Shown here: positions 14,186 through 40,518 of the stretch, piece after piece | Position numbering within the stretch: position 1 is the first letter of the stretch | How the letters are laid out: each line of letters opens with the position of its first letter | The notes under the pieces: model-generated | What the model was told of the DNA's origin: nothing | The model's database searches: none | What the model saw: only the letters and a program-made list of their open reading frames with translations | Made by a program: the position numbers and the translations under genes | Assembly (NCBI GenBank): GCA_947427285.1 | Contig: CANEHE010000003.1 | Span: 1-64,000 of the forward strand | Direction of reading: 5' to 3' | DNA length: 64,000 nt | Origin: an uncultured Porphyromonadaceae bacterium | GTDB taxonomy: Bacteria; Bacteroidota; Bacteroidia; Bacteroidales; Muribaculaceae

Positions 14186-15757
14186 TTACCGAACAATCAC
14201 CTTACGCACTTTGTCACCTTTGCGTTCGATGACCAACTGACCCCGGACCGGATCGAATATCTCAATACCCTGAAGATTGAAATAGCGGACCTCGTCATTG
14301 TCTACATCCTCGATTCCTTCTACACCGACAGCCGAACTAACCGTCACGTCGCATGTCGCGGAATATCCGCCACAGGAGGCGGTAATGACCGCAGTGCCCT
14401 CCGCAACAAGCGATACCACACCGTCAACCACCGTAGCCACGGAAGTATTGGAAGAAGTCCATGTCACGGTCTTATCCGTGGCATCATCTGGCTTGACCGT
14501 AGCGACGAGAGTGAAGGATGTTCCGGAGAAACCGGTAAATTCTGTCCGGTCAAGTGTGATTCCTGTGACATCTATTGTCGGAGGATCCATCTCCACATAG
14601 TTCTTGAAACCATTCCAGTTGGTGGTATTTCTATAGGTTTCTGCTGTGCCATAAGGGACATGAAGAGTCGTGTTGGCCTTCACTGCGGCAGGGAAGGTGG
14701 TAGCCGCAATCGTAGCCGGAACAGTTGCAAGCGAGTAAACATCTGTCAGATTCGAACATCCGACGAATGCGTCATACTCGATTGTCTGCAGACCGCTTCC
14801 GAGAGTTATGGTCTTCATACTGTTCTGATAGAATGTTCCATGCTCAATCAAACTGACAGAATTGGGTATCACGTAGTTATCGATGAGTTTCAATTGATAG
14901 TACGATTCCCAGCCTATTTTGGTGATGGTCTCTGGAAGATTGATGGCCGTTGCCTGGCATAGATAGAAGCATTCCGCCTCGATTTCCGTGACAGTATAGT
15001 CTACTCCCTCGGAAGATATCTTCTCCTTTATATTGAGATCTCCGGAATATTTATCCACACTCAGACGATAGGGAGACATGACCATCGCGGTCTTGTCCGT
15101 ATTATTGAGCTGATACCAGATCCCGTCGACATTCACCGGTCCTATGGGAACGTACGCCTTGAAACCACTCCAGTTAGTCGCCGTCTTATAGGCATTGATA
15201 GCCGAGGGGGGCATCCTGAGCGTGATATTAGACTTTATCGCCGCCGGGAACGTGTTGCCGGAGATCAAGGGCGGCGTCGTGTTCAGGCTCACAACCTCGA
15301 TCAGAGTCGTGCAATCCCTGAAAGCGTTGCCGTCGATATTGGTCAGACCTGAGCCAAGGGTTATCTTCCCTATTTTCGCTCCGTCGAAAGCGCAAGAACC
15401 TATGGTAGACACGGAATTGGGAATCACAAGCTCCGGGATGACGATTCCCTCAAAAGAATACTTCCCAAGCGATGTCAGAGTCTCCGGAAGCGTTAGAGAA
15501 GACATGTTTGCCCCAATAAACGCTCCGGAAGCTATAGATGTTACGGTATATCTGTTCGCTGGAAACTGCACGCTGTTCACATACGGAGGAATCACCATAT
15601 TTCCGCTGTACGAAACTTCGTTGATTTTCACTTCGGCGGTCATCGTAGTGTTGTTGTATCCGTATCGGATTCCGTCTACCGTTTCTTCTCCGTCATATGC
15701 AGCAAATGTCATCATCGAGACAGACACTGCAAAAGCTAATAAAATTTGTTTTTTCAT
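14186..15757 (-). CDS. BspA-type leucine-rich repeat protein with Ig-like (Big_2) domain
   Basis: repeated [42 protein letters not shown] units; [41 protein letters not shown] Big_2 domain; signal peptide. Confidence 0.9.
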
Positions 15758-15770
15758 TTTTTTTGAATCG

Positions 15771-18623
15771 TTACCTGATTATTATTTTCTCAGTTCTGGA
15801 TCCGGACTTCAATATGTAGAGTCCCGGACGCAATGATTTACATCCGCTACGGAGACCGGCAAATACCTTCACACCGTCAAATGTATAGATTTCAACCTCC
15901 GCGTCTCCATCCATGTCAGCACCGATCTCTTCAACGGAATCATACCGCGAGTCTACAGTCACAGTACATTCCGAGGAGATCAGTCCGCAATATGCGGTAA
16001 ACGTCGTAGTGCCGTCAGTCAGAAGAGTAACCACATTATCCTCTCCTATCGTTGCCACTTCAGGGTTGGAATTGGTGACAATCACTGTCTTGAAATCCGC
16101 ATCAGCAGGGAGGAGGGAAGGAGTGAGAGTAAATTTGTCTCCAGGTTTGCCGATATAACTGTCCGGAGTGAGTTTCACCTCCACAGGCATCTCATCGCCA
16201 TCGTGCCAGTATACCCAGCTTCTGAAATTCTTCCATCCGGCGCATTTCTTGTAGTTGCCGAACATCGAGGCTGGAATCACAAGTTCACACGCAGGCCATA
16301 TTTCAGGCGAGAATGCCTGTCCATAATCTGTCGGATCTCCCGAATAAGTGAAAAACACAGGTGGAGTCATATTGACACAGCGTATGTAGCGGATTTTAGG
16401 AGAATCGTAGAACGCCATCATTCCTATCTGTTCCAGATGGTCGGGAAGGGCCACTGAAATCAGATCAGGACATGACATGAAAGCCTGCGCATCAATTGTC
16501 TTCACACTCTGAGGGACATCAAATACTCGGAGGCCAGTACCCTGAAACATCCCCTGAGGAATACGCCCGATGCCTTCCGGCATAGAAACCTCACGAAGCA
16601 AGGAGCAATCTTTGAATACGGATATCCCAAGCGAATCCACGGAAGCCGGAACGGTAACACTCTCTATCGAAGTTCCTGAAAAAGCCTGTTGCCCTATAAT
16701 CTTCACTCCCGAAGCAATGGTAAGCTTGCGGAGGGCAGAGAGGCCCTGGAACACAAATGGACGTATTTCCTTCACTCTTTCCGAAATATTGACCTCAGTC
16801 ACAGGTTGACCGTTTAGATAAAGAGAACCGGTAATGGCGATTGGATTGGAATTGCGGTTTTTAAACTGGATGTCACACCAATCGTCGAGCGAGCTGATAT
16901 TGATTCTTTCCAGACCTTCACACTGGCGAAAAGCATCATATCCGATCGTATCTACCGATGCAGGGATCGTGACAGATTTCACATTCTTATAGAGTGCGAA
17001 AGCATTTGCCCCGATTCCCTTCACCGTATAGGTGATACCGCCGGGAGTGATTGTCTCTGGAATCACGATATCTCCTTTGTACTCCGCATCACCACGGATC
17101 AGAGTCGCAGTTTTCCTTTCTGTTCCAGTATCCTTTTCAAAGAACAGCTGATATTTCAGACCATCCACCGTAGGGTTCGGCTCTATAGAAATCACACGGC
17201 ACATCGCACTAACCGTAGTATTACCGTTGCAAATCGCCTCTATATTACCCACGCCTGCACCTACAAGTGTTACTGTACCGTCATCATCCACAGTGGCAAC
17301 ATCCGTATTGAGCGATTTCCATTCAACAGTCTTGTCCGTGCTGTCATCCGGCAATACCACGGCCGTAAGTTTATACACACTACCTTTGAAAGCTTTTATT
17401 TCAGAAGAAGACAAAGTTACCGACTCTGGACGCACGGGACTGTCAGCATACTCCTGAATTGTATTGAACTTACTCCATACCGTATTCTTCTTATAAGCCT
17501 CAACACATCCACGGGGAACGAAAAGCGCGCATTCGGTCACATCAAGACCAGCAAATGTGGTGCTTTCCACAGCAGGTGCCTTCGGATTAAGGGAAACAAG
17601 CTCTTTCAGACCCGCACAGTTACGGAAAGCATACATACCTATGGATTTTACTTTCTCCGGCAAAATGAGCTTTGAAACCGAAGTCTCACTAAAAGCATGA
17701 TTCGAAATAGTATTCAATGTCTCAGGAAGTATAATCGCGGTCACTTTTGACTGATAGCAGAATGCACCGTAATTTACCCCAGTGACAACGTATTGCTTAC
17801 CGTCACAAGTAAATTCCGACGGAATCGTGATTTCCCCGGAATACTCCATACCCGAGTTCGGCTCATTGACACCAGCCTCCATGCGATCGGTATCGTATGG
17901 GCGCGTGGTGAGCTTGTAACAGATACCATCGATGACACATATTCCATCGACCGACACCGTGCCGGTTTCGACCTCCTCGTATGCCTTGAAACCGGCCCAG
18001 TTGGCTGCATTCCGATACACTTCGACCGACCCGGCAGGCACTTTGAGCGTAACGTTTTTCTTTACAGTGGCCGGGAAAGTACCGCTCTGGATTTCAAACG
18101 GAGTTTTACCCAGACATTCCACTTCTGTCAACGACGTGCATTCTTTGAAAGCATTGTTGCCCACACTGACCACTCCAGATCCGAAGGTAATTCTTTTCAG
18201 TTTTGAATACTGAAACGCAGAGACACCGATAGTCTTCACTGAATTAGGAATTACCAGATCCGTAAGAAGAGTGGAATCAAACGAATATTCATCAAGAGTC
18301 AGAATCGTTGAGGGGAGAGTCACCGATGTCACCTCATCATAGTCATTGAACGCAAACTGGCCTACAGAAGTGACCGAGTACTCGACACCATTATACGTGA
18401 CCGTAGGAGGCACCACTATATCCCCCTTATAACAGTTCATGTCATTGCCATCGTAATAGGCATTCGCCACCGCCGCAGTCTTATCAGCACTGTTGAACTT
18501 GTAGTAGAGATCACCGGATTTTCCCACCATCTGCGCGTAGACTCCCATCGAAGCACACACCAAAAAAGATAATAGTAAACCTTTTTTCATTAGAATAAAT
18601 AATATAGTTACTTCTAAATTCAA
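15771..18623 (-). CDS. BspA-type leucine-rich repeat protein with two Ig-like (Big_2) segments
   Basis: 950 aa; multiple BspA LRR units, Big_2 segments ([36 protein letters not shown]), C-terminal [17 protein letters not shown]. Confidence 0.9.
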
Positions 18624-18660
18624 TTTCTCTGCATAAATACAGAGGAATATTAATTTTAGG

Positions 18661-18668
18661 CAAAATTA
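18661..18668 (-). promoter_or_regulatory. Candidate -7 promoter box TAATTTTG of the two-gene BspA operon
   Basis: Minus-strand TAATTTTG about 38 nt upstream of the start at 18623. Confidence 0.5.
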
Positions 18669-18684
18669 CATATTCCCGCCAACT

Positions 18685-18692
18685 CCCCCCCC
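18685..18692 (-). repeat. G8 homopolymer tract (C8 on + strand)
   Basis: aactCCCCCCCCaataaa, 16 nt upstream of the TAATTTTG box. Confidence 0.9.
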
Positions 18693-18820
18693 AATAAAAT
18701 TACTTAATTTATGTTAAATAGTCATAACCGTGACTGATTTTATATTATTATCTGTCAAACCAACAACGTATCACCAGCGTTCTGATAATGTAAATTGCAC
18801 CTTTCTTAAACATATACACT

Positions 18821-18982
18821 ATGAAAAAATACAGATGTGAAGTATGCGACTGGATCTACGACCCTGAAAAGGGTGATCCGGACAATGGAATCGCTCCCGG
18901 AACAGCTTTCGAAGACCTTCCTTCAGACTGGGTATGTCCCGTCTGTGGCGTAGGAAAAGAGGACTTCGTAGAGGAGCCATAA
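18821..18982 (+). CDS. Rubredoxin (53 aa; absent from the supplied ORF track)
   Basis: [53 protein letters not shown]; two CxxC knuckles. Confidence 0.97.
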
Positions 18983-19022
18983 TTCCAACGGAATTTTCCG
19001 CTTAAAATAATAACGACGATAA

Positions 19023-19053
19023 AAGGAGTGCTTTGAAATTCAAGGCACTCCTT
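19023..19053 (+). terminator. Rho-independent terminator downstream of rubredoxin
   Basis: AAGGAGTGCtttgaaattcaagGCACTCCTT hairpin followed by atcttatatt. Confidence 0.65.
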
Positions 19054-19107
19054 ATCTTATATTATTACAGACCTTTACTTATTGATGGTCATCCCATGTA
19101 AGGCATT

Positions 19108-21336
19108 TCAATTCAAAGGAACCATTATTTTTCTTACGGATCCGTCGCTCATACGTAGAATATTGATTGTGCCCGGAACCGGATCTGAAACACAATTACC
19201 ATTGATGTCATATATCTGCTTGACCGTAAGTTCTGCATTTCCCTCAATCGTGGAGATACCGGAAAGGTCTCCTTGAATTCTAACATATTTCCCCCATTCT
19301 TCGTGAGCCTTATATGCATCAAGAGAGGAGGAGGGTACATGCAGTGTCACACTTGAATAACCATCCCATGCATCTACATTATACATACGACCGTTTGTTG
19401 CCGGAGGATTGACCGGAAGCATATAGAGATCAGTCATCGATGTGTCGAAATTTACCGCCAGAGAGTCGATTGACATCACTGTAGACGGAATCGTCAGAGT
19501 CTTCAGTTTTTGATTTACAGATATTCCATTGGCACCAATTGTCTGGAGGCCTTCATTAAGGATGACATTCTCAAGAGATTCATTCATATGAAGAGCATGA
19601 TGCTCCAAATTTATAAGACCTGTGCCACAAGTGAACGAGGTCATTTTCGCATTCCAGGAAAAGGAAAAATTATCAATTGTCTTAACAGAGTTCGGCAATA
19701 CTACCGGGCCTGTCAGATCCGCGAGTTCAAAAGCCGCATCGCCAATAAATTCGATTCCTTCTTTTAAATCTGCTTTGGTCACAGATGTCTGATACATCGC
19801 TCCACTGTCTATTTTTTTCAATGATGCCGGATAGTTAACTGATATCAGAGCCTTACAATAGGCGAAACACATACTGGGAATCTCAGAGAGACCCTCGCCG
19901 AGAACAGCCTTAGTGAGAGATGTGCAATTATAAAAAATTGAATTGCCAAATGACCTCACCGTTCCTGGTATGGTTATTTCCGGAATAAGTGAACATCCAT
20001 AAAATGCAAGAGGGCCAATCTCCTCAAGACCATCATTCAGTACCACCTTGGTCAATCCCGAACAATAAGTAAACGACTGATAGTCGAGCACACGTACCGA
20101 CGCAGGAAGTGACAATTCCGCAAGCATCCGACAATTTTGGAATGCCTGACGCCCGATTGTTTCCAACCCATCGTTGAACACTGCCTTCCTGAGATTTGCG
20201 CAATTGTAAAATGAATTGTCTCCGATTTTTTTAATCGATGAGGAGAACGTCACACCAGTAAGACCGCTTTGCCCATAGAACGCATACGCGCCGATATTCT
20301 CTATTCCTGCCGGTACTGTGAATTCACCATTCATGACCGTAGTGGCGACAAGGGTCTTTCCATCTTTTGTCATCAGTACACCCCCGATAGCCTTGTAAAA
20401 AGGATTGTCGGACGAGACTGTCAACGACTCAAGATCGTTATTCATAAAAAAGGCTCCCGCGCCGATTGTCTTTACTCCAGAAGATATCTCTATGGATCTA
20501 AGACCACATACTCCCAGTGCCATGTCTCCTATCTCCTCAAGCGAAGACGGGAACGTAACCGATGTCATGACAGCGTTATTACGCATGGAAGCCGCACCGA
20601 TTATCTTGACGCCGGCAGGCACTGCATAAGACACCTTCCCGTTCCCAACCGGATAACTCACAAGAAGGGTCTTCTCCTTGTCAAACAATACTCCGTCAAC
20701 CGAAATATACGAAGGATTCCCATTTTCAACATTGATTGTTTTCAAAGCCGAACAAGATCGGAAAGGGTTAAGACCGATTTTTGTCACAGACTTCGGAACA
20801 GTAAACTCTGTAAGAGCTTTTGCGCCCTGAAAAGTATAATCACCCCATTCGGTAGTGTACTCCAAGCCAGTCACAGTATCAAGGGAAGTACAGTTTCCGA
20901 AAGCCAGCGAGGCGAGTTTACGCACAGCGTCGTTCATCTCAACCTTTACAAGCTTATTGCTTCCGTCAAATGCCGCAGAATCAACTTCTGTAATGTATTT
21001 CCCGAACTTTATCGACTGTAAAAGGCCATTATTGAGGCAGGCTTTCTTCCCGACTTTAGTCACTTTATATGACTTGCCTTCGTAGGTAATCTCATCTGGA
21101 AGCACCAGATCAGGATTTTCAGCAGCTGCCGGAACAAGAGCAGCCACCTCTGCCGTAGTGGCATTAGTGTCGATGTTGAAAATCATTTTGTCTGGCAGTT
21201 GCACCCGGATTATCTCTGAATGAACTGAGGAAAAAGAGCCAAACGCAAGAAGCACTGTGAGCATCCCACCCATTTCTTTGAATGATTTCTGCATATTGTG
21301 AGAAAATTTTTGTTTCCCGTCCGTATGAACAGACAA
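19108..21336 (-). CDS. BspA-type leucine-rich repeat surface protein
   Basis: 742 aa; more than a dozen LRR units (e.g. GLETIGRQAFQNCRMLAELSLPASVRVLDYQSF). Confidence 0.9.
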   Translation of the reverse strand: MSVHTDGKQKFSHNMQKSFKEMGGMLTVLLAFGSFSSVHSEIIRVQLPDKMIFNIDTNATTAEVAALVPAAAENPDLVLPDEITYEGKSYKVTKVGKKACLNNGLLQSIKFGKYITEVDSAAFDGSNKLVKVEMNDAVRKLASLAFGNCTSLDTVTGLEYTTEWGDYTFQGAKALTEFTVPKSVTKIGLNPFRSCSALKTINVENGNPSYISVDGVLFDKEKTLLVSYPVGNGKVSYAVPAGVKIIGAASMRNNAVMTSVTFPSSLEEIGDMALGVCGLRSIEISSGVKTIGAGAFFMNNDLESLTVSSDNPFYKAIGGVLMTKDGKTLVATTVMNGEFTVPAGIENIGAYAFYGQSGLTGVTFSSSIKKIGDNSFYNCANLRKAVFNDGLETIGRQAFQNCRMLAELSLPASVRVLDYQSFTYCSGLTKVVLNDGLEEIGPLAFYGCSLIPEITIPGTVRSFGNSIFYNCTSLTKAVLGEGLSEIPSMCFAYCKALISVNYPASLKKIDSGAMYQTSVTKADLKEGIEFIGDAAFELADLTGPVVLPNSVKTIDNFSFSWNAKMTSFTCGTGLINLEHHALHMNESLENVILNEGLQTIGANGISVNQKLKTLTIPSTVMSIDSLAVNFDTSMTDLYMLPVNPPATNGRMYNVDAWDGYSSVTLHVPSSSLDAYKAHEEWGKYVRIQGDLSGISTIEGNAELTVKQIYDINGNCVSDPVPGTINILRMSDGSVRKIMVPLN

Positions 21337-24653: not shown

Positions 24654-24805
24654 ATCAATTCAGGGTATATCTTTGTTCAACAAGTTAATCCGCCGGATGC
24701 AAACCCGGTCTAATTCTATAACTCAACGTAATCGGTTTTGTTGCCCTCCGGATTTCGGATAATCTTAAAAAGAGATCTCCGATTGGCAATTTCATACTTT
24801 TTTAT

Positions 24806-24813
24806 TACTTTTG
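24806..24813 (+). promoter_or_regulatory. -7 promoter box TACTTTTG upstream of EamA transporter
   Basis: TAnnTTTG match, 93 nt before the ATG. Confidence 0.45.
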
Positions 24814-24905
24814 CACCATCAAACATAAGAGGCTGTCTGAAAATCAACAGTCGTTTTTTAACAGCCTCCAAATCTTCCGACACGAAGAAAAGAGCTAACT
24901 TAACC

Positions 24906-25862
24906 ATGAACGCATCCAGAAGCCTGCGCAACTCAAAATACGTCAAAGCGATAGCCCACATCGGAGCACTTTTGGCCGCCACCGCATGGGGCACCTCCTT
25001 TTTATGCACAAAAGTACTGATGCTTCCTCCCGACCAGGGGGGCGGGGGATTCACACCCGTAGAAATGTTTGTCTACCGTTTTACCGCCGCATATATTATG
25101 CTTCTGCTGTTATCTTTCAAGAAAATATTCGCCAACAACTGGCGTGATGAACTGAATTTCATAATCTGCGGCATCTGTTCCGGTTCACTTTACTTCATCA
25201 CCGAGAACTTTGCCCTCAACTATACCACCGCAGGCAACGTATCGCTTCTGGCGTCTGTCTCTCCAATATTCACCACAATCCTTGTGGCGATAATCTTCCG
25301 GACAAAAATAAAGATCGGAGAGGCAATCGGCTCGTTAGTGGCTCTGGCAGGTGTATTCTGCATCATATTCAGCCATGGTGAGGGATTCGTGATCAAACCG
25401 AAAGGCGATCTGCTGGCATTGACAGCCTCATTGTCGTGGGCCATATATACTATTGTGGTCAAGAATCTCATCCCGCACTATTCCTCTGTATTCATCACAC
25501 GCAAACTTTTCTTCTACGGGGTGCTGACAGCGTTGCCGATACTCGCATTCCAGACCGAGCCATATCATCTCGGACTGCTTTTCGATCTTGCACAACCGAA
25601 ATTCATGCTCAACTTCCTCTTCCTCGTCTTGATATGCTCATGCGCCGCCTTTATGATCTGGAATCAGGTGATCAATGCGCTTGGACCTGTCACCGCCAAC
25701 AACTATCTTTATCTGCAGCCACTTGTCACCATGATCGCCGCCTTCCTTGTAATCGGAGAGGTAATCTACATGATGGGCTACATCGGTTGTGTGCTGATTA
25801 TCGGAGGTCTGGTGCTCAGCGACAAATGGAAACCCTCTTTCCGGCTTAAACGGAAAGAATAA
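24906..25862 (+). CDS. EamA/DMT family transporter (start at MNASRSLRNSKY)
   Basis: 10-TM EamA duplicate; LLAATAWGTSFLCTKVLM. Confidence 0.9.
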   Translation: MNASRSLRNSKYVKAIAHIGALLAATAWGTSFLCTKVLMLPPDQGGGGFTPVEMFVYRFTAAYIMLLLLSFKKIFANNWRDELNFIICGICSGSLYFITENFALNYTTAGNVSLLASVSPIFTTILVAIIFRTKIKIGEAIGSLVALAGVFCIIFSHGEGFVIKPKGDLLALTASLSWAIYTIVVKNLIPHYSSVFITRKLFFYGVLTALPILAFQTEPYHLGLLFDLAQPKFMLNFLFLVLICSCAAFMIWNQVINALGPVTANNYLYLQPLVTMIAAFLVIGEVIYMMGYIGCVLIIGGLVLSDKWKPSFRLKRKE

Positions 25863-25880
25863 CATCAAAAAAAGAACGAC

Positions 25881-26156
25881 ATGTTACGACTCAACTGCTT
25901 TATAAAGGTCAGCCCCGAAAACCGGGAGAAAGTGATTGAAGAGGCAAAAGCTCTTGTGGAGGCTTCCCGCAAGGAAGAGGGCTGCAAGGCCTACGACCTG
26001 TTTGAAAGTGCCACTATCCCCGAACACCTCATGATCTGCGAGACATGGCGCGATCAGGCCGCTCTTGACGCTCATACCGCATCAGACCATTTCTCCAAAC
26101 ATGTAGGTGCGATGAGATCACTCGCAGAGATGAGTCTCGACAAAATGACACTCTGA
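25881..26156 (+). CDS. Antibiotic biosynthesis monooxygenase (ABM)-fold protein
   Basis: 91 aa; SRKEEGCKAYDLFES...LMICETWRDQAALDAHTASDHF. Confidence 0.9.
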   Translation: MLRLNCFIKVSPENREKVIEEAKALVEASRKEEGCKAYDLFESATIPEHLMICETWRDQAALDAHTASDHFSKHVGAMRSLAEMSLDKMTL

Positions 26157-26191
26157 GCAGACGTCAGATCCACATAGAAAGTCCACTGAAA

Positions 26192-26986
26192 ATGAATTAT
26201 GTGAAACCGCAAGACATACATGCCATCCTTGAGGCGGCCATAGCCATAGCCCGCGGAGCCGGAGAGATACATCTCCGCCATTTTCGGCATGCCGGTCTGC
26301 GGATTGACAACAAATTGAACGACAGCGATGTTGTCACCACAGCCGATCGGGAAGCGGAAGCATTCATAATATCGGAAATCAACCGCCGCTTTCCGGACCA
26401 CTCAGTGCTTTCAGAAGAATCGGGTGCCTCAGGCAATCCCGACAGCGGACTCCGCTGGATTGTGGATCCACTCGACGGCACCACGAATTTCAGTCAGGGA
26501 CTTCCGCTGTTTTGCGTCTCCATCTGCGTGAATGATGGCACTGATGACCTTGTCGGTGTGGTATATAATCCTTATCTCAATGAATTATTCCACGCCGTAA
26601 GAGGCGGAGGGGCATGGCTCAACGGCAAGTCTATCCAATGCTCTGACAAAACCAGACTGCAGACTGCAGTAGTAGCCACAGGATTTCCTGTAGACAAAGG
26701 CACAAACCCCGACAATAACCTGGAAAATGTGGCACGGATCATGCCAGACGTGCGCGGCCTGCGCCGTCTGGGTTCGGCTGCAATGGATCTGGCGTATGTC
26801 GGAGCCGGATTTCTTGATGCATACTGGGAGATGGACCTGCACGAATGGGATGTGGCGGCCGGAAGGCTGATTGCAAAAGAGGCAGGGGCCCGATATACTA
26901 TCTGGCGTGACAATAACGACCGTGGTATATGTGGCCTGGCTGCTTCTCCCGGAATATACCATCTTCTCCTTCAGAGACTGGTATGA
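26192..26986 (+). CDS. Inositol monophosphatase family protein
   Basis: 264 aa; WIVDPLDGTTNF and WDVAAGRLIAKEAGA motifs. Confidence 0.93.
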   Translation: MNYVKPQDIHAILEAAIAIARGAGEIHLRHFRHAGLRIDNKLNDSDVVTTADREAEAFIISEINRRFPDHSVLSEESGASGNPDSGLRWIVDPLDGTTNFSQGLPLFCVSICVNDGTDDLVGVVYNPYLNELFHAVRGGGAWLNGKSIQCSDKTRLQTAVVATGFPVDKGTNPDNNLENVARIMPDVRGLRRLGSAAMDLAYVGAGFLDAYWEMDLHEWDVAAGRLIAKEAGARYTIWRDNNDRGICGLAASPGIYHLLLQRLV

Positions 26987-28629
26987 GCTTATCTACGCCA
27001 ATGACTACACATGGCCGACTACCCTCCTCCGGCTGGCTATCCGACCGTTGCCTTCTTATCCTCATAGCGGTCATAACGGCCTTTTCCATACACGCTGCCA
27101 CATCATCATCATTGCTTCCTCCTAATGGAGAAGCCATGGAGAACCTTCGACTCGCAAATACCGCCTACGAACGTGGTGACAATATCAGCGCGCTACACTA
27201 CTGCCATGAATTCATACGACTGACGGCTGATCTCAAACCCTCGGCACCACTCGATTCGGCCCAAAGCGCATGTTACCATATACTGGGCAACATCCACTTC
27301 CATTATTTCGACTACGGAAAAGCGATCCGACACTACAACACCGCCATACGGTTCTCCCGCAAACTCAACGACAAGGACCGTGAGGCCCGGATAGTGAACA
27401 ACCTTGCCTTATCGGCATGTTATCTGCACGATCATAAACTGGCCGACAAATATTTCGCACAGGCCGACAGCCTGACCATCGACAACAAGGATCTCGACTT
27501 GTTTGTCAAAACAGTCCGGCGTGCGCTGTATCAGAGAATTTTCGGAGACAAAAAGAAATCCATAACCCTCATGAGGGAGGCATATACGACTGCCACATCA
27601 GGAAAAGTCTCACCCCGCTTCCAGCTCACTCCTATTTCAGAACTGTTCCAGATGTATGAACAGGCGGGACAGACGGATTCGGCTCTGATCTGGCTGAAAA
27701 AATACTCCGAACTGTCAAAAGAGTACAATGTGGTCTCCATGATGGCCGATGTGGAACGTGGATATATGTGTATCTACGCACGCATGCCGGATATGAGGGA
27801 GAAAATGCTTGAACATCTCGACCGCTATTTCGCTTACAAAGATTCCCTGCTCGACAACGAGGCTTTCCTCCGGATTTCTGAACAATATGAAGAGAATCTG
27901 AGCAAACGGAACAACGATAAGATAAAGACCCTTCAGATCAAAGTCACTAAACTTGAAGCCATTCTTTTCGGTCTGATTATTTTTGTATGTATTGCAGTCG
28001 GCATATTTCTATGGGTCAGAAACTCCCGTCGACTCCGCAAAGCATACGGAGTGATTTTTGAGAGTAACAAAGAAATGGCACACGCCGCAAGGAGGTATGA
28101 CATGGATAGTATGCCGGCGGACTCAGGAACCATGACATCCATAAGTGCCGACACAGACACGGATGACAGCAATCTGACAGAAACATTCAAGTCTGAAGAA
28201 ACTGAAAACATCGATACGGACAACCTGACAGACGAACAGGATGAAACCGGACACCATGCCCGGAGAGGCCTTTCCGACCAGGCTTCGGAAGAACTTGCCG
28301 ACAAAATAGCAAAAGTAATGGAAACATCCGAAGAATGGCTTGATCCGGATTTCAGCATATCCTCATTGGCATCCCTTGTCGGAGCGAACGCAAAATATGT
28401 GTCAGCATGCATCAATGACCGATATGGTAAAAATTTCAGAACATTCATCAACGAATACCGCATACTGACGGCTCTACGCAGAATGTCTGACATTCCGGCT
28501 TACGGACAGTTCACAATAGGAGCCATTGCCGAAAGCGTGGGGTTCCGCTCCTCCACTAATTTCATCGCGGCATTCAGAAAAGTGACAGGTGTCACTCCCT
28601 CCAGATACCTCAAGTTGGCCCAGAAATAA
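26983..28629 (+). CDS. Membrane-spanning TPR-AraC-type transcriptional regulator
   Basis: Starts at ATG overlapping the previous stop (ATGA); signal/TM, TPR-like repeats, second TM (ILFGLIIFVCIAVGIFLWV), C-terminal AraC HTH (TIGAIAESVGFRSSTNFIAAFRKVTGVTPSRYLK). Confidence 0.88.
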   Translation: MSLSTPMTTHGRLPSSGWLSDRCLLILIAVITAFSIHAATSSSLLPPNGEAMENLRLANTAYERGDNISALHYCHEFIRLTADLKPSAPLDSAQSACYHILGNIHFHYFDYGKAIRHYNTAIRFSRKLNDKDREARIVNNLALSACYLHDHKLADKYFAQADSLTIDNKDLDLFVKTVRRALYQRIFGDKKKSITLMREAYTTATSGKVSPRFQLTPISELFQMYEQAGQTDSALIWLKKYSELSKEYNVVSMMADVERGYMCIYARMPDMREKMLEHLDRYFAYKDSLLDNEAFLRISEQYEENLSKRNNDKIKTLQIKVTKLEAILFGLIIFVCIAVGIFLWVRNSRRLRKAYGVIFESNKEMAHAARRYDMDSMPADSGTMTSISADTDTDDSNLTETFKSEETENIDTDNLTDEQDETGHHARRGLSDQASEELADKIAKVMETSEEWLDPDFSISSLASLVGANAKYVSACINDRYGKNFRTFINEYRILTALRRMSDIPAYGQFTIGAIAESVGFRSSTNFIAAFRKVTGVTPSRYLKLAQK

Positions 28630-34639: not shown

Positions 34640-35794
34640 ATGAGCGAACAAGCAGCATCAACGCAAAAAACACGCAGCATCGTCTCCATAGCCGATCTGT
34701 CGAAAGATGAAATCCTTGAACTCATCCGGCTTGCCGCATATTTTGAGGCCCACCCCAACAGCAAACTGCTTGACGGGAAGATCGTCGCCACACTTTTCTT
34801 TGAGCCCTCCACACGCACACGTCTGAGTTTCGAGACCGCTGTAAACCGCCTCGGGGGACGCATAATCGGATTTTCAGACCCGGCGGCGACATCCACCTCA
34901 AAAGGGGAAACCCTCAAGGACACCATAAAGATGGTTGCCAATTACGTGGATCTTATAGTCATGCGTCATTATCTGGAAGGAGCTCCACGGTACGCCTCTG
35001 AAGTTACCGAAATCCCCGTGATCAATGCCGGCGACGGCGCACATCAGCATCCGTCCCAGACGATGCTTGACCTATACTCCATCTACAAGACCCAGGGACG
35101 TCTTGACGACATCACGGTCACGATGGTGGGGGATCTCAAATATGGCCGCACTGTCCACTCTCTGCTTATGGCTCTGAGCCATTTCCGTGTGAAATTCAAC
35201 TTTGTGGCCTGCGAGGAACTGAGAATGCCTGAGGAATTCCGTTCCTTCTGCGAACGCAACGGAATACAATACCGGGAGTCATCGGAATTCTCGCCCGAAA
35301 TAATCGCGGATACCGATATACTCTACATGACACGTGTGCAGCGCGAACGTTTTTCCGACCTTATGGAATATGAGCGTGTAAAGGATCTCTATAATCTGGA
35401 GGCATCCATGCTCGACGTAGCCAAAGACAATCTGCGTGTGCTGCATCCGCTGCCCCGTGTAAATGAGATCGCACAAGATGTGGACGACAGTCCCAAGGCA
35501 TATTACTTCCAACAGGCAAAAAACGGTCTTTTTGCACGGCAAGCCATGATATGCACCGCCATGGGTATCGAGATACCCGACTATGTCCCCTTCCAAGGCA
35601 GCAAAGTGGTGGACAGGCAACCCGTGCGACAGCCTGACGAAATAATCGGACGTGTGACGTGTGACAATCCAAAATGCGTTACCTGCAACCAGCCCATACC
35701 CTCCCGGTTTGAGATTGCGGACCGCAACGATACCACTCTCCGCTGCCACTATTGCGAACATGAACTGCACGTAGACCCGACCGTACTGAAATGA
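34640..35794 (+). CDS. pyrB: Aspartate carbamoyltransferase catalytic chain fused to PyrI-type zinc domain
   Basis: [37 protein letters not shown]-terminal [31 protein letters not shown]...LRCHYC resembles the PyrI zinc domain. Confidence 0.93.
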
Positions 35795-36681: not shown

Positions 36682-37389
36682 ATGGAATCCAAATACCACT
36701 ACTCCCCCGACAGAAAAATGGCATCACTTATTGCCGATGACTACCGTCTTATACAGGTAATGACCCGTTTCGGCATCCATGTCGGATTCGGCGACATGAC
36801 TGTCTCCGAAGTATGTCAGGCACAGGGAGTGGATTGCGGCACCTTCCTGACAGTAGTCAATTTTATAGTCGACGGTTACACACATGCCGATATGGCCGGC
36901 ACAATATCAATAGGTTCCCTTCTTCAATATCTCAAGCAAAGCCATACATATTTTCTTGACTATCTACTACCGTCAATACGCAGAAAGCTCCTTGACGGCA
37001 TAAAGACCGATACAGGAGAGGTATCATTCCTCATTCTGAAATTCTTCGACGAATACGTGACTAAGGTGCGCATACACATGGAATATGAAGACCGGACAGT
37101 ATTCAGATACATCGAGTCTCTTATGGAAAATATTGAATTGCCTAATTTCAATATCCACACGTATTCAGATTATCATGAAGAAGTGTCATCCAGCCTTCAT
37201 GAACTGAAAAGCATCATAATCAAATACGGACCGGTAGACGCCGACGTCAATCTGCTCAATGATGTACTTTATGACATATATCGCTGCGAAGAGGAATTGG
37301 AAAGTCATTGTCTTATAGAGGACGAACTTCTGGTTCCGGCCATAGTGTCCTTGGAGAGAGAAACAGCCGCGAAAGGGGGTGATCGATGA
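36682..37389 (+). CDS. Hemerythrin-like domain protein (RIC/YtfE-like)
   Basis: 235 aa; HTYFLDYLLPSIRRKL, HMEYEDRTVFRYIE, DYHEEV, HCLIEDELLVPAI metal-ligand-like His/Glu pattern. Confidence 0.8.
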   Translation: MESKYHYSPDRKMASLIADDYRLIQVMTRFGIHVGFGDMTVSEVCQAQGVDCGTFLTVVNFIVDGYTHADMAGTISIGSLLQYLKQSHTYFLDYLLPSIRRKLLDGIKTDTGEVSFLILKFFDEYVTKVRIHMEYEDRTVFRYIESLMENIELPNFNIHTYSDYHEEVSSSLHELKSIIIKYGPVDADVNLLNDVLYDIYRCEEELESHCLIEDELLVPAIVSLERETAAKGGDR

Positions 37390-37988
37390 GACACACCGAA
37401 AAGATTCATATTGTAGTTGCCGAGACATCGCCTGTCATATCCTCAGGATTCAGCTTCTGTCTGCGAAGATTGCCTGGACTGCAGGCACAGACTATCGAGA
37501 CCCATACATACCCGGACCTTATAAACTGCCTGCGAAACAATCCGGTCGACATAGTAGTGGTCAATCCTAATTTCGGAGGCGCATTTGCTCCCCAGCATCT
37601 TCGCGAGACTTTAGAAACCAGCGATCTAAAGATCGTAGCCATCGAGATCAGTCCAATCGACCGCCCTACACGGTCACTCTATGACGACGTGGTGTCTATC
37701 GTGGAGGACCTCCCATCTATGGCGGAAAAGATGAGAAAACTCGCAATCGGTACCACTGAAAGTGAACCGGATAAAGAACCTCTCAGCACACGTGAGAAAG
37801 AGATAATAACATTGGTTGTGAAAGGGATGACCAACAAGGAAATCGCTGATCGGTTGTTTCTATCAATCCATACTGTCATGACACACCGACGCAACATAGC
37901 CCGTAAACTTGAAATCCACAGTGCCACCGGTCTTACAATCTATGCCATAGTGAACCACCTTGTGGATCTCACCGAAATCAAACTCTGA
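37386..37988 (+). CDS. LuxR/NarL-type response regulator with degenerate receiver domain
   Basis: 200 aa; LSTREKEIITLVVKGMTNKEIADRLFLSIHTVMTHRRNIARKL HTH; start overlaps the previous stop (ATGA). Confidence 0.88.
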   Translation: MRHTEKIHIVVAETSPVISSGFSFCLRRLPGLQAQTIETHTYPDLINCLRNNPVDIVVVNPNFGGAFAPQHLRETLETSDLKIVAIEISPIDRPTRSLYDDVVSIVEDLPSMAEKMRKLAIGTTESEPDKEPLSTREKEIITLVVKGMTNKEIADRLFLSIHTVMTHRRNIARKLEIHSATGLTIYAIVNHLVDLTEIKL

Positions 37989-38092
37989 ACGCAGCTACAT
38001 AACAATATCGATCCTCTTCTGACCGTTAGGGATACAGATGCCCGTTCGTTTGAAGCACCCGACTTTCACGTATCAAGCTTTCCACACCTTTG

Positions 38093-38116
38093 GGAAATTG
38101 CAGCACTGCAATTTCC
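38093..38116. repeat. 24-nt palindrome (11-bp arms, 2-nt centre)
   Basis: GGAAATTGCAG ca CTGCAATTTCC. Confidence 0.9.
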
Positions 38117-38216
38117 TTGTGCATTTCGTACCATGCCAATTTTATCCGTTTATTTTTTATAAGTCCTCTTTTACATATTTTAACATAAAATTTAGCTAAT
38201 TTTATATAAAAATTAC

Positions 38217-38224
38217 TAATTTTG
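38217..38224 (+). promoter_or_regulatory. -7 promoter box TAATTTTG of ncRNA candidate 1
   Basis: TAnnTTTG match; no ATG-initiated ORF downstream that explains it. Confidence 0.5.
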
Positions 38225-38230
38225 CAACAA

Positions 38231-38558
38231 AATTTAATTTGGAGGTAAAAATACTCAGACATTCGTCTGATGACGATGTAAAGAAAAGCCTTACCAAATT
38301 GAAGTTATCCAAATTACTGAAGAATAACAGTGAAAAAGTAGTGAATAATATCAGTCGTCGGTAGTCCTAATTCTACCGTGAAAGTCGGTTGGTGTGTGGT
38401 CGGCAACCGAAGGCTGATAGAAGAATCTCTTGTAGTCTATGATGTGAATCATTATAAAGAGACATATTGGGACTACCCCATAAATTGATTAAGTGTTATC
38501 AGGATGGAAAACGAGACCGCACATCGTAACCGGACACCACGAGGGGTCCGGTTTTTTT
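38231..38558 (+). ncRNA. Candidate structured noncoding RNA 1 (class unknown)
   Basis: Promoter box and strong terminator bracket about 330 nt with no convincing ORF; helices 38386-38391/38404-38409, ATGAT-GTGA-ATCAT hairpin, long-range GGTAGTCC/GGACTACC. Confidence 0.5.
38529..38558 (+). terminator. Strong Rho-independent terminator
   Basis: ACCGGACaccacgagggGTCCGGT followed by TTTTTT. Confidence 0.88.
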
Positions 38559-38634
38559 CTATTATCAGACACACCGCATCCATTTACAGATCCGTATATG
38601 GAAACGATCACCCAAAATGTACTGATAAGGTGGT

Positions 38635-40518
38635 TTAAAAAAGATGTTCTATCTGGGATACATCAAGAATCTTGTAGACAGGGTTGCCTTCTGGCGTAAG
38701 AGCCGGAGAGGACAGGCTGAACAGTTCGCTGACTATATGCTCCATCTCCGCAACAGAAAGTCTTTGCCCACGACGGATTGCAGCCGAACGAGCCATGACA
38801 AGTGCCATTTTTTCCTGAATATCACGTATAGGTGATCCTTCTCGTCCGTAATCAGTCGAATCATCACATACAGAGCTAAGAATCCGTATAATAACCGAAC
38901 CAGGATCCGCATCATGAAGCGGAGCAGGCACACCGGTGATTTTCCATTTTCCCTCCGCAACCGGCTCCAGTCGGAATCCGAAAGTCTCCAATTCCTCTTT
39001 GACTTCCTCAAGTGCACTGCATTGCACCTCATCAAGGTTTACAACATCCGGAAACAACGACTGCTGTGACGGGGTCTCTCCACTACCACCCGAAGCCATA
39101 AGATGTTCAAAAAGAATCCTGACATGTGCTCTATGCTGGTCTATGATCAGAAGTCCCTCCCGGGAAGGAACAAGTATATATTTTGCAGCCAACTGCATAC
39201 ATACGGCATCTGGGGTCTCAGAAGCATCAACAACAGGTATCGGATCCTCCTTGGGCAATGACACATCATTACCCTCACTCTGATTCATAAACGACTGATA
39301 AAGCGTTTCCCAGTTCTGAGACTGACGTGTAGGACGCCATTGACTTCCGACACCATTCCTTCGACTTTCGTTCTGGGGCTTCTTTTCTCCGATGCCAACA
39401 TCAGAATTGAAATACCGTTCAAACGGATTATAACCTCCCGGCACCTCCATGCTTGGGGCTTTCGGAATCTCCCCGTCACGTAAAGGTTCGATTGGAATGA
39501 TTTCCTCGGTGAAATCAATCGAAGGCACAGCTGCATTCCGACCCAGAGATGCTCTTATCGCAGATGTCAGGATTCTCCATATCTCCTGTTCATTCTCAAA
39601 CTTTATCTCATTCTTGGTAGGATGCACATTGACATCGATTGAGGCAGGATCAACATCAAATTTCAAAAAATAACATGGTTGGGAATCAGATGGGATAAGA
39701 TTTTCAAAACAACTGATTATACCGCGGTGGAAATAAGGATGACGCATGTTCCTCCCATTGACAATAAGATACTGGAGAGCATTGCGTCTTCTCGAATGTT
39801 CGGGACGTGAGACAAATCCGCTTATTTTCACCATGGCAGTGTCTACCTCGACTGGCAGAAGCTGCATGTTGAGATTGTTCTTCCATAGATCACCTATCCT
39901 CTGCTTGAACGATCCGGGGCGCAAGTCAAGCGGACGTCCGCCACGGTCAATCGACATACGGATATTGTTGTTAACCAATGCAAGACGTTCGAACTCCCGC
40001 ATGATGTTGGCCGCCTCGACATTGTCGCTTTTGAGAAATTTACGCCGGGCAGGAATATTGAAAAAAAGATTCTTGACCATTATATTGGTCCCGCGCTCAC
40101 ATACGACCGGCTCCTGCATCTCCACGCGAGACGCATTGATGATCAGATGTGTACCGATGGAATCGGCATCCGTACGCGTTTTCATTTCTATCTGGGCAAC
40201 AGCACAGATGGAAGGCAGTGCCTCGCCTCTGAAACCCATAGTACGAAGAGAAGAAAGATCGGTAGCCTGACTGATCTTGGATGTGGCATGACGCTCAAAC
40301 GCCATACGGGCATCTGTGACAGACATTCCTTTACCATTGTCTATCACCTGAATAAGAGTTCTACCGGCATCCCGGACAAAAATACGTATCTCCGTGGCAC
40401 CGGCATCGACAGCATTTTCCACCAATTCCTTTATCACAGACGCAGGTCGCTGGATTACCTCCCCGGCCGCGATCTGGTTGGCCACTGAGTCCGGCAACAG
40501 TCGTATAATATCACTCAT
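38635..40518 (-). CDS. mutL: DNA mismatch repair protein MutL
   Basis: IRLLPDSVANQIAAGEVIQRPASVIKELVENAVDAGAT; TMGFRGEALPSI. Confidence 0.97.
   Translation of the reverse strand: MSDIIRLLPDSVANQIAAGEVIQRPASVIKELVENAVDAGATEIRIFVRDAGRTLIQVIDNGKGMSVTDARMAFERHATSKISQATDLSSLRTMGFRGEALPSICAVAQIEMKTRTDADSIGTHLIINASRVEMQEPVVCERGTNIMVKNLFFNIPARRKFLKSDNVEAANIMREFERLALVNNNIRMSIDRGGRPLDLRPGSFKQRIGDLWKNNLNMQLLPVEVDTAMVKISGFVSRPEHSRRRNALQYLIVNGRNMRHPYFHRGIISCFENLIPSDSQPCYFLKFDVDPASIDVNVHPTKNEIKFENEQEIWRILTSAIRASLGRNAAVPSIDFTEEIIPIEPLRDGEIPKAPSMEVPGGYNPFERYFNSDVGIGEKKPQNESRRNGVGSQWRPTRQSQNWETLYQSFMNQSEGNDVSLPKEDPIPVVDASETPDAVCMQLAAKYILVPSREGLLIIDQHRAHVRILFEHLMASGGSGETPSQQSLFPDVVNLDEVQCSALEEVKEELETFGFRLEPVAEGKWKITGVPAPLHDADPGSVIIRILSSVCDDSTDYGREGSPIRDIQEKMALVMARSAAIRRGQRLSVAEMEHIVSELFSLSSPALTPEGNPVYKILDVSQIEHLF

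Follow-up and report, generated by a model that had tools for sequence, protein, structure and literature searches.

A probable small RNA gene with a conserved long-range helix downstream of a LuxR-type regulator gene in an uncultured Muribaculaceae bacterium

Introduction

The window analysed here, a stretch of 64,000 nucleotides, contains at positions 38217-38558 an intergenic interval between a LuxR-type gene and mutL. A preliminary description made from the sequence had taken it for an unannotated noncoding RNA with two competing base-pairings, and had named a decayed gene as the alternative. This raises the question if the interval is a gene at all and, if so, what kind of RNA it may specify. 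The consensus of the Bacteroidota sigma-ABfr -7 box is TAnnTTTG, and the high-confidence intergenic small RNAs (sRNAs) of B. thetaiotaomicron have the anatomy of such a box combined with a terminator; 9 of 11 tested candidates were confirmed by Northern analysis, and 27 of the 49 high-confidence Bacteroides sRNAs are strain-specific (PMC7366714).

Results

Boundaries and neighbours of the putative RNA gene

The box reported between the LuxR-type gene and mutL is present, as is the strong terminator, the T run of which comprises seven residues. From these two elements we infer the ends of a transcript which would start at about 38227. The locus has the following features.

36682-37389, forward strand: hemerythrin-domain protein (PF01814), the conserved upstream neighbour
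37386-37988, forward strand: LuxR/GerE-type regulator (PF00196), which immediately precedes the RNA in each of the two species described below
38217-38224, forward strand: promoter box TAATTTTG, which matches the Bacteroidota sigma-ABfr -7 box TAnnTTTG
38227-38558, forward strand: putative noncoding transcript of about 332 nt, its ends placed by box and terminator
38529-38558, forward strand: intrinsic terminator ACCGGAC...GTCCGGT followed by T7, read from the sequence
38635-40518, reverse strand: mutL, convergent with the RNA and, in the second species, not adjacent to it

An automated terminator scan did not list this terminator, probably on account of the loop limit of 8 used in that scan. 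As mutL is encoded on the minus strand, the RNA faces its 3' end, and the earlier suggestion to collect "mutL-upstream" regions was thus a slip.

Between LuxR and the promoter box of the RNA lies a perfect inverted repeat (GGAAATTGCAG-CA-CTGCAATTTCC, 38093-38116); it is possibly the terminator of the LuxR gene, though it lacks a clean T run. Elsewhere in the window (14186-21336), three long adjacent genes carry leucine-rich BspA-like repeats, with Ig-like segments in two of them, and by eye these probably code for surface proteins.

A diverged homologue at the same locus

When the 111 genomes of the genus were searched by BLASTN with the window RNA, one weak, meaningful match was obtained (G004:C3:117832-117857). 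It lies on contig CAMCDS010000003.1 of an uncultured Porphyromonadaceae MAG (G004, homologue locus L043), and the same contig emerged independently when GTDB representatives were scanned for patterns. The match belongs to a full, diverged homologue of about 347 nt with its own TAATTTTG box, situated about 45 nt past the stop codon of the orthologous LuxR gene, and with its own terminator, which is unrelated in sequence to that of the window and equal to it in strength. Across both species the RNA has a length of 332-347 nt, and in both of them the marks of Bacteroidota intergenic sRNAs are found, namely a TAnnTTTG box, a 3' intrinsic terminator and no conserved reading frame.

The hemerythrin gene, the LuxR gene and the RNA occur in identical order and orientation in the two species. 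Of the placement between LuxR and mutL only the first half is therefore conserved: LuxR is the constant neighbour, but mutL lies elsewhere in G004. The 3' neighbour is convergent mutL in the window versus an EamA-type transporter gene in G004, which is on the same strand as the RNA and is preceded by its own TAnnTTTG box. The orthologue of this EamA gene, identified by eye, is at 24738-25862 in the window, which indicates a rearrangement on the 3' side that left the linkage of LuxR and the RNA intact. The window region 24738-28629 codes for an EamA transporter, an inositol-monophosphatase-like protein and a TPR/AraC-type protein, and in G004 all three genes directly follow the RNA; it is thus the block separating them from LuxR that has been rearranged.

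The MutL proteins of the window species and G004 are 66% identical. The cores of the two RNAs (190 nt) were aligned by MAFFT without structure information; identity of the core is 63% over 196 columns of a hand-adjusted alignment. Two blocks are nearly identical, CTCTTGTrGTCTrTGATGTGAATCAT and AGTGTTATyAGGATGGAAA. The 5' third of the RNA is not conserved between the two sequences.

The window transcript (38227-38558) folds with -93.4 kcal/mol compared to -71.8 +/- 4.75 for dinucleotide shuffles (z -4.55), and none of 100 such shuffles is as stable. When the terminator is removed, z is -3.5 and 1 of 200 shuffles reaches the same stability. The G004 RNA on its own is not more stable than its shuffles (z -0.35, terminator removed). 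The 5' arm has z -2.7 in the window and -0.55 in G004.

Helices of the conserved core

Comparison of the two species leads to the following structural features, all on the forward strand.

38233-38303: 5' arm, a long AT-rich hairpin (AUUUAAUUUGGAGGU.../...CCUUACCAAAUUGAAGU), the sequence of which is not conserved in the homologue
38338-38350: conserved purine-rich segment GTAGTGAATAATA, which precedes the structured core in the alignment
38349-38356 with 38412-38419: P1, 8 bp, about 80% in the window ensemble
38359-38378: P2, local hairpin CGGTA/TACCG, which G004 retains with a single compensatory change
38375-38389: alternative hairpin ACCG-UGAAAGU-CGGU with a T-loop-like loop of 7 nt, seen by eye, which excludes P2
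38391-38401: 5' strand of P3, GGUGUGUGGUC, pairs with 38515-38525
38515-38525: 3' strand of P3, GACCGCACAUC, pairs with 38391-38401 (11 bp)
38428-38432 with 38500-38504: P4, UCUUG with CAGGA, from the consensus fold
38439-38452: P5, hairpin AUGAU-GUGA-AUCAU with a GNRA loop, kept in G004
38492-38514: highly conserved AGTGTTATCAGGATGGAAAACGA, of which 38500-38504 is the 3' strand of P4 while the rest is unpaired in the model

P3 is a long-range helix which had been absent from the preliminary description and which emerges when both species are compared. It is the longest helix possible in both sequences, and all 11 pairs form in the window as well as in G004, with two compensatory changes (G-C to A-U) and two one-sided ones. 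None of 2000 column shuffles reached 11 bp, and pairing drops from 100% to 21-55% once the 3' partners are slid by 1 to 3 columns. A shuffle control of the pair counter (127 of 500) was uninformative and, as only two sequences are compared, the covariation is statistically shallow. In G004, P3 dominates over other pairings, with a probability of up to 0.89; it is absent from the minimum-energy fold of the window RNA, where its ensemble probability is about 0.1 and forcing it costs 2.8 kcal/mol.

P1 is probably the second helix of the core. At the homologous place in G004, 7 of 8 pairs are found, with one mismatch and five both-sided changes; this support depends on the alignment, since it requires sliding, and is matched by 4.6% of shuffles. 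In the full-length G004 ensemble, where P3 dominates, the probability of P1 is about 1%. P1 and P3 interleave and would form a pseudoknot if both are present together. A consensus fold restricted to nested pairs hides P1, and the pseudoknot was therefore read separately.

The nested consensus fold of the two sequences contains P2, P3, P4 and P5 and has z -5.5 (0 of 300 shuffles), a result somewhat favoured by hand adjustment of the alignment around P2 and P3; the unadjusted MAFFT alignment likewise yields P3, P4 and P5. P4 is nearly invariant (UCUUG/yAGGA) and hence provides weak evidence. Among the pairings named previously, the GNRA-type hairpin ATGAT-GTGA-ATCAT and the local hairpin at 38359-38378 are present and retained in G004, the latter as CGGTA/TACCG. 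CGGTTG/CAACCG is present in the window (38386-38391/38404-38409) but is not kept in the homologue.

Competing pairings and the question of a switch

The interval had been likened to a switch on the grounds that GGTAGTCC (38360-38367) can pair either in the local hairpin or with GGACTACC (38470-38477). The two strands exist, but as a conserved competing helix the pairing falls away: at best 5 of 8 pairs form in G004, and the helix has a probability of about 0.025 in the ensemble. Of the shuffles of the 301-nt region, 41% contain one or more perfect 8-bp helices, so that GGTAGTCC/GGACTACC is no more than expected by chance, and the switch based on it is unsupported.

A different competition is found in both species. 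TACCG (38374-38378) can pair upstream in P2, or ACCG (38375-38378) can form the downstream hairpin. The G004 version of the latter, GCCGG-UGCGAAU-CCGGU, has one base pair inserted on both strands, as read by eye from the alignment. Its 7-nt loop retains the U and A of the T-loop motif, and GGUGCGAAUCC in G004 resembles loops of tRNA and cobalamin riboswitches.

The RNA might be a structural switch or sensor. In such an RNA, 38375-38378 would belong either to P2 or to the T-loop-like hairpin, P3 would face competition from P1 and its neighbours, and a ligand or partner would select the state. This is consistent with the presence of both alternatives in both species, one supported by a compensatory change and the other by the two-strand insertion, with the T-loop-like loop, and with a window minimum-energy fold that lacks P3, although P3 can be forced at a cost of only 2.8 kcal/mol. 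However, P1 and P3 need not exclude each other and may both be present in a pseudoknot, the helix on which a switch had originally been based is not conserved, and no sense gene follows in the window, so that the output would have to be in trans or on RNA stability. We regard a switch as unlikely.

Comparison with known RNAs

A scan of the whole window with Rfam at gathering score gave a tRNA-His only. Chance matches alone were obtained at E up to 10 for 38000-38700 and at E up to 5 for the G004 locus. The proposed comparison with Rfam thus reveals no known family at the RNA locus.

With the cobalamin riboswitch (RF00174) the RNA shares, by eye and as a resemblance only, the T-loop-like hairpin GGUGCGAAUCC of G004 and a long-range loop pairing. 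It differs in having its own terminator and, in the window, no sense gene downstream. No match to RF00174 was obtained up to E 10 in the window or E 5 at the G004 locus, and a role as leader of a B12 gene was rejected, the downstream gene being convergent mutL in the window and an EamA-type gene with its own TAnnTTTG box in G004. RNase P RNA, tmRNA and 6S RNA are, like the present RNA, stand-alone structured RNAs of roughly the same size range. RNase P RNA (RF00010) has no match here and sits at another locus in the window genome (G000:C2:58980-59356), in G004 and in a further congener, G030; ARAGORN finds no tmRNA in the window; and for 6S RNA there is no Rfam match and the predicted fold is not a single rod. 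Unlike the present RNA, 6S RNA is expected genus-wide.

There is a likeness, too, to GibS-type intergenic sRNAs of Bacteroides, which are also independent intergenic genes with a TAnnTTTG-type box, an intrinsic terminator and a narrow distribution (PMC7366714). The RNA described here is longer (about 330 nt versus 145 nt for GibS) and has a compact, predicted pseudoknotted core, whereas GibS is relatively unfolded; a sequence relation is not claimed.

A compact core with invariant segments, and the close linkage to a LuxR regulator gene seen in the two species, would also suit a lineage-specific RNA which does not pair with mRNAs but binds and titrates a protein such as a regulator or polymerase, the pseudoknot serving as the binding surface. 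Against this, no known protein-binding motif or RNA family is matched, in most species that have an orthologous LuxR gene a protein-coding gene comes directly after it, and the distribution is not 6S-like. We consider titration rather improbable.

Distribution among related genomes

Of about 110 congeners, two were found to carry the RNA, and the searches of all other genomes were negative. When the window RNA was used as BLASTN query against 60 relatives and the 111 genomes of the genus, a real match was obtained in G004 only, and none in phages or plasmids; BLASTN with the G004 RNA revealed no further homologue in 397 genomes of the family. Covariance model R1 found the RNA only in the window genome (G000) and G004 when applied to the 111 genus and 397 family genomes, and no further copy in 36 chosen relatives with laxer filters. 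DNA patterns scanned over the genus, genome contigs and viral contigs likewise occur only in these two. Those marginal matches that were read in context are inside genes or without the helices; those at L148 and L149 are, by eye, within genes for methionyl-tRNA formyltransferase and a membrane protein, respectively. The regions downstream of LuxR contain no counterpart in other congeners, among those listed, or in ten distant genomes of the order. As the first pass of the search tools is word-based, diverged copies may be missed.

The congener G030 is about equally close to the window species and to G004 as these are to each other (MutL identity 66-71%). There, LuxR is immediately followed by an acyltransferase-like gene, and two stretches examined with filters off contained no copy of the RNA. 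The gene has thus been lost or moved there, or has diverged past recognition. G030 also has separate genes for pyrB and full pyrI (L157 1426-2397 and 2451-2912), while in the window pyrB (34640-35794) is apparently fused to the C-terminal zinc-binding part of PyrI only (...CHYCEHEL), without the allosteric N-terminal domain.

Absence from almost all relatives would suit functionless intergenic sequence, that is, a LuxR 3' untranslated region with a fortuitous promoter-like box, the terminator being that of a read-through transcript; a motif as short as TAnnTTTG does occur by chance. But nearly identical blocks of 12-26 nt and a compensating 11-bp helix are not expected of neutral sequence in species with 66% MutL identity, and we consider this very improbable.

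Coding potential

The statement that about 330 nt lack a convincing ORF holds, as judged from the two sequences: no conserved coding frame was found. The two short open frames of the window (45-47 codons) have no match in Pfam or NCBIfam. The first has no counterpart in G004, and the second is interrupted there by a TGA four codons past the GTG. A decayed or short protein gene, for which only these open frames and the same-frame correspondence of SLVVYDVNH in the window with ALVVCDVNH in G004 would speak, is hardly credible because of this in-frame stop, and it is further contradicted by starts that are GTG or TTG and never ATG, by alignment gaps that are not multiples of three, and by P3 base-pair compensations that alter codons.

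Discussion

A homologue at the same place with compensating changes makes it most likely that the interval is a real small RNA gene and not a decayed gene, and the original proposal of an unannotated noncoding RNA is supported by the box, terminator and compensatory changes of that homologue. Box, intergenic position, terminator and narrow distribution are features of Bacteroides sRNAs, and an sRNA is hence the most likely class. Since no gene in sense orientation follows directly in the window, control in cis is unlikely and action in trans is the default. We think it reasonably probable that the interval is a stand-alone, noncoding gene for a lineage-specific, trans-acting regulatory sRNA with a pseudoknotted core.

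Such an RNA would have its own TAnnTTTG-type promoter, located downstream of the hemerythrin-LuxR pair, and its transcription would stop at the intrinsic terminator. In the folded RNA, a variable 5' arm would be followed by the conserved core (about 190 nt), which the 11-bp P3 would hold together and in which P3 would be pseudoknotted with P1. Enclosed by P3 would be the GNRA hairpin and well-conserved segments that are largely unpaired in the model. Of these, CTCTTGTAGTCT and AGTGTTATCAGGATGGAAA may contact mRNAs or a protein in trans, and the segment at 38492-38514 is, according to the folding model, a candidate interaction site.

Duplex prediction with the start regions of neighbouring genes gave a single outlier, the LuxR start region of the window (37326-37425, -67.3 kcal/mol, 0 of 100 shuffles). 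The signal is not reproduced in G004 (72 of 100 shuffles), and LuxR was therefore dropped as a target; among the neighbouring genes no target is conserved between the two species by this prediction. That the two cores, with their pseudoknot and competing T-loop-like hairpin, represent the first two members of a new class of structured RNAs acting as stand-alone sensor or trans-acting switch seems doubtful to us.

Structured RNAs are hardly catalogued in uncultured gut Bacteroidales, with the exception of Bacteroides. In this setting, an unlisted RNA gene, the long-range helix of which is testable, could be defined from no more than a promoter box, a terminator and a single diverged homologue. 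If the RNA were indeed a switch, it would be unusual in standing alone, with two alternative states that are both conserved and without a gene downstream for it to control.
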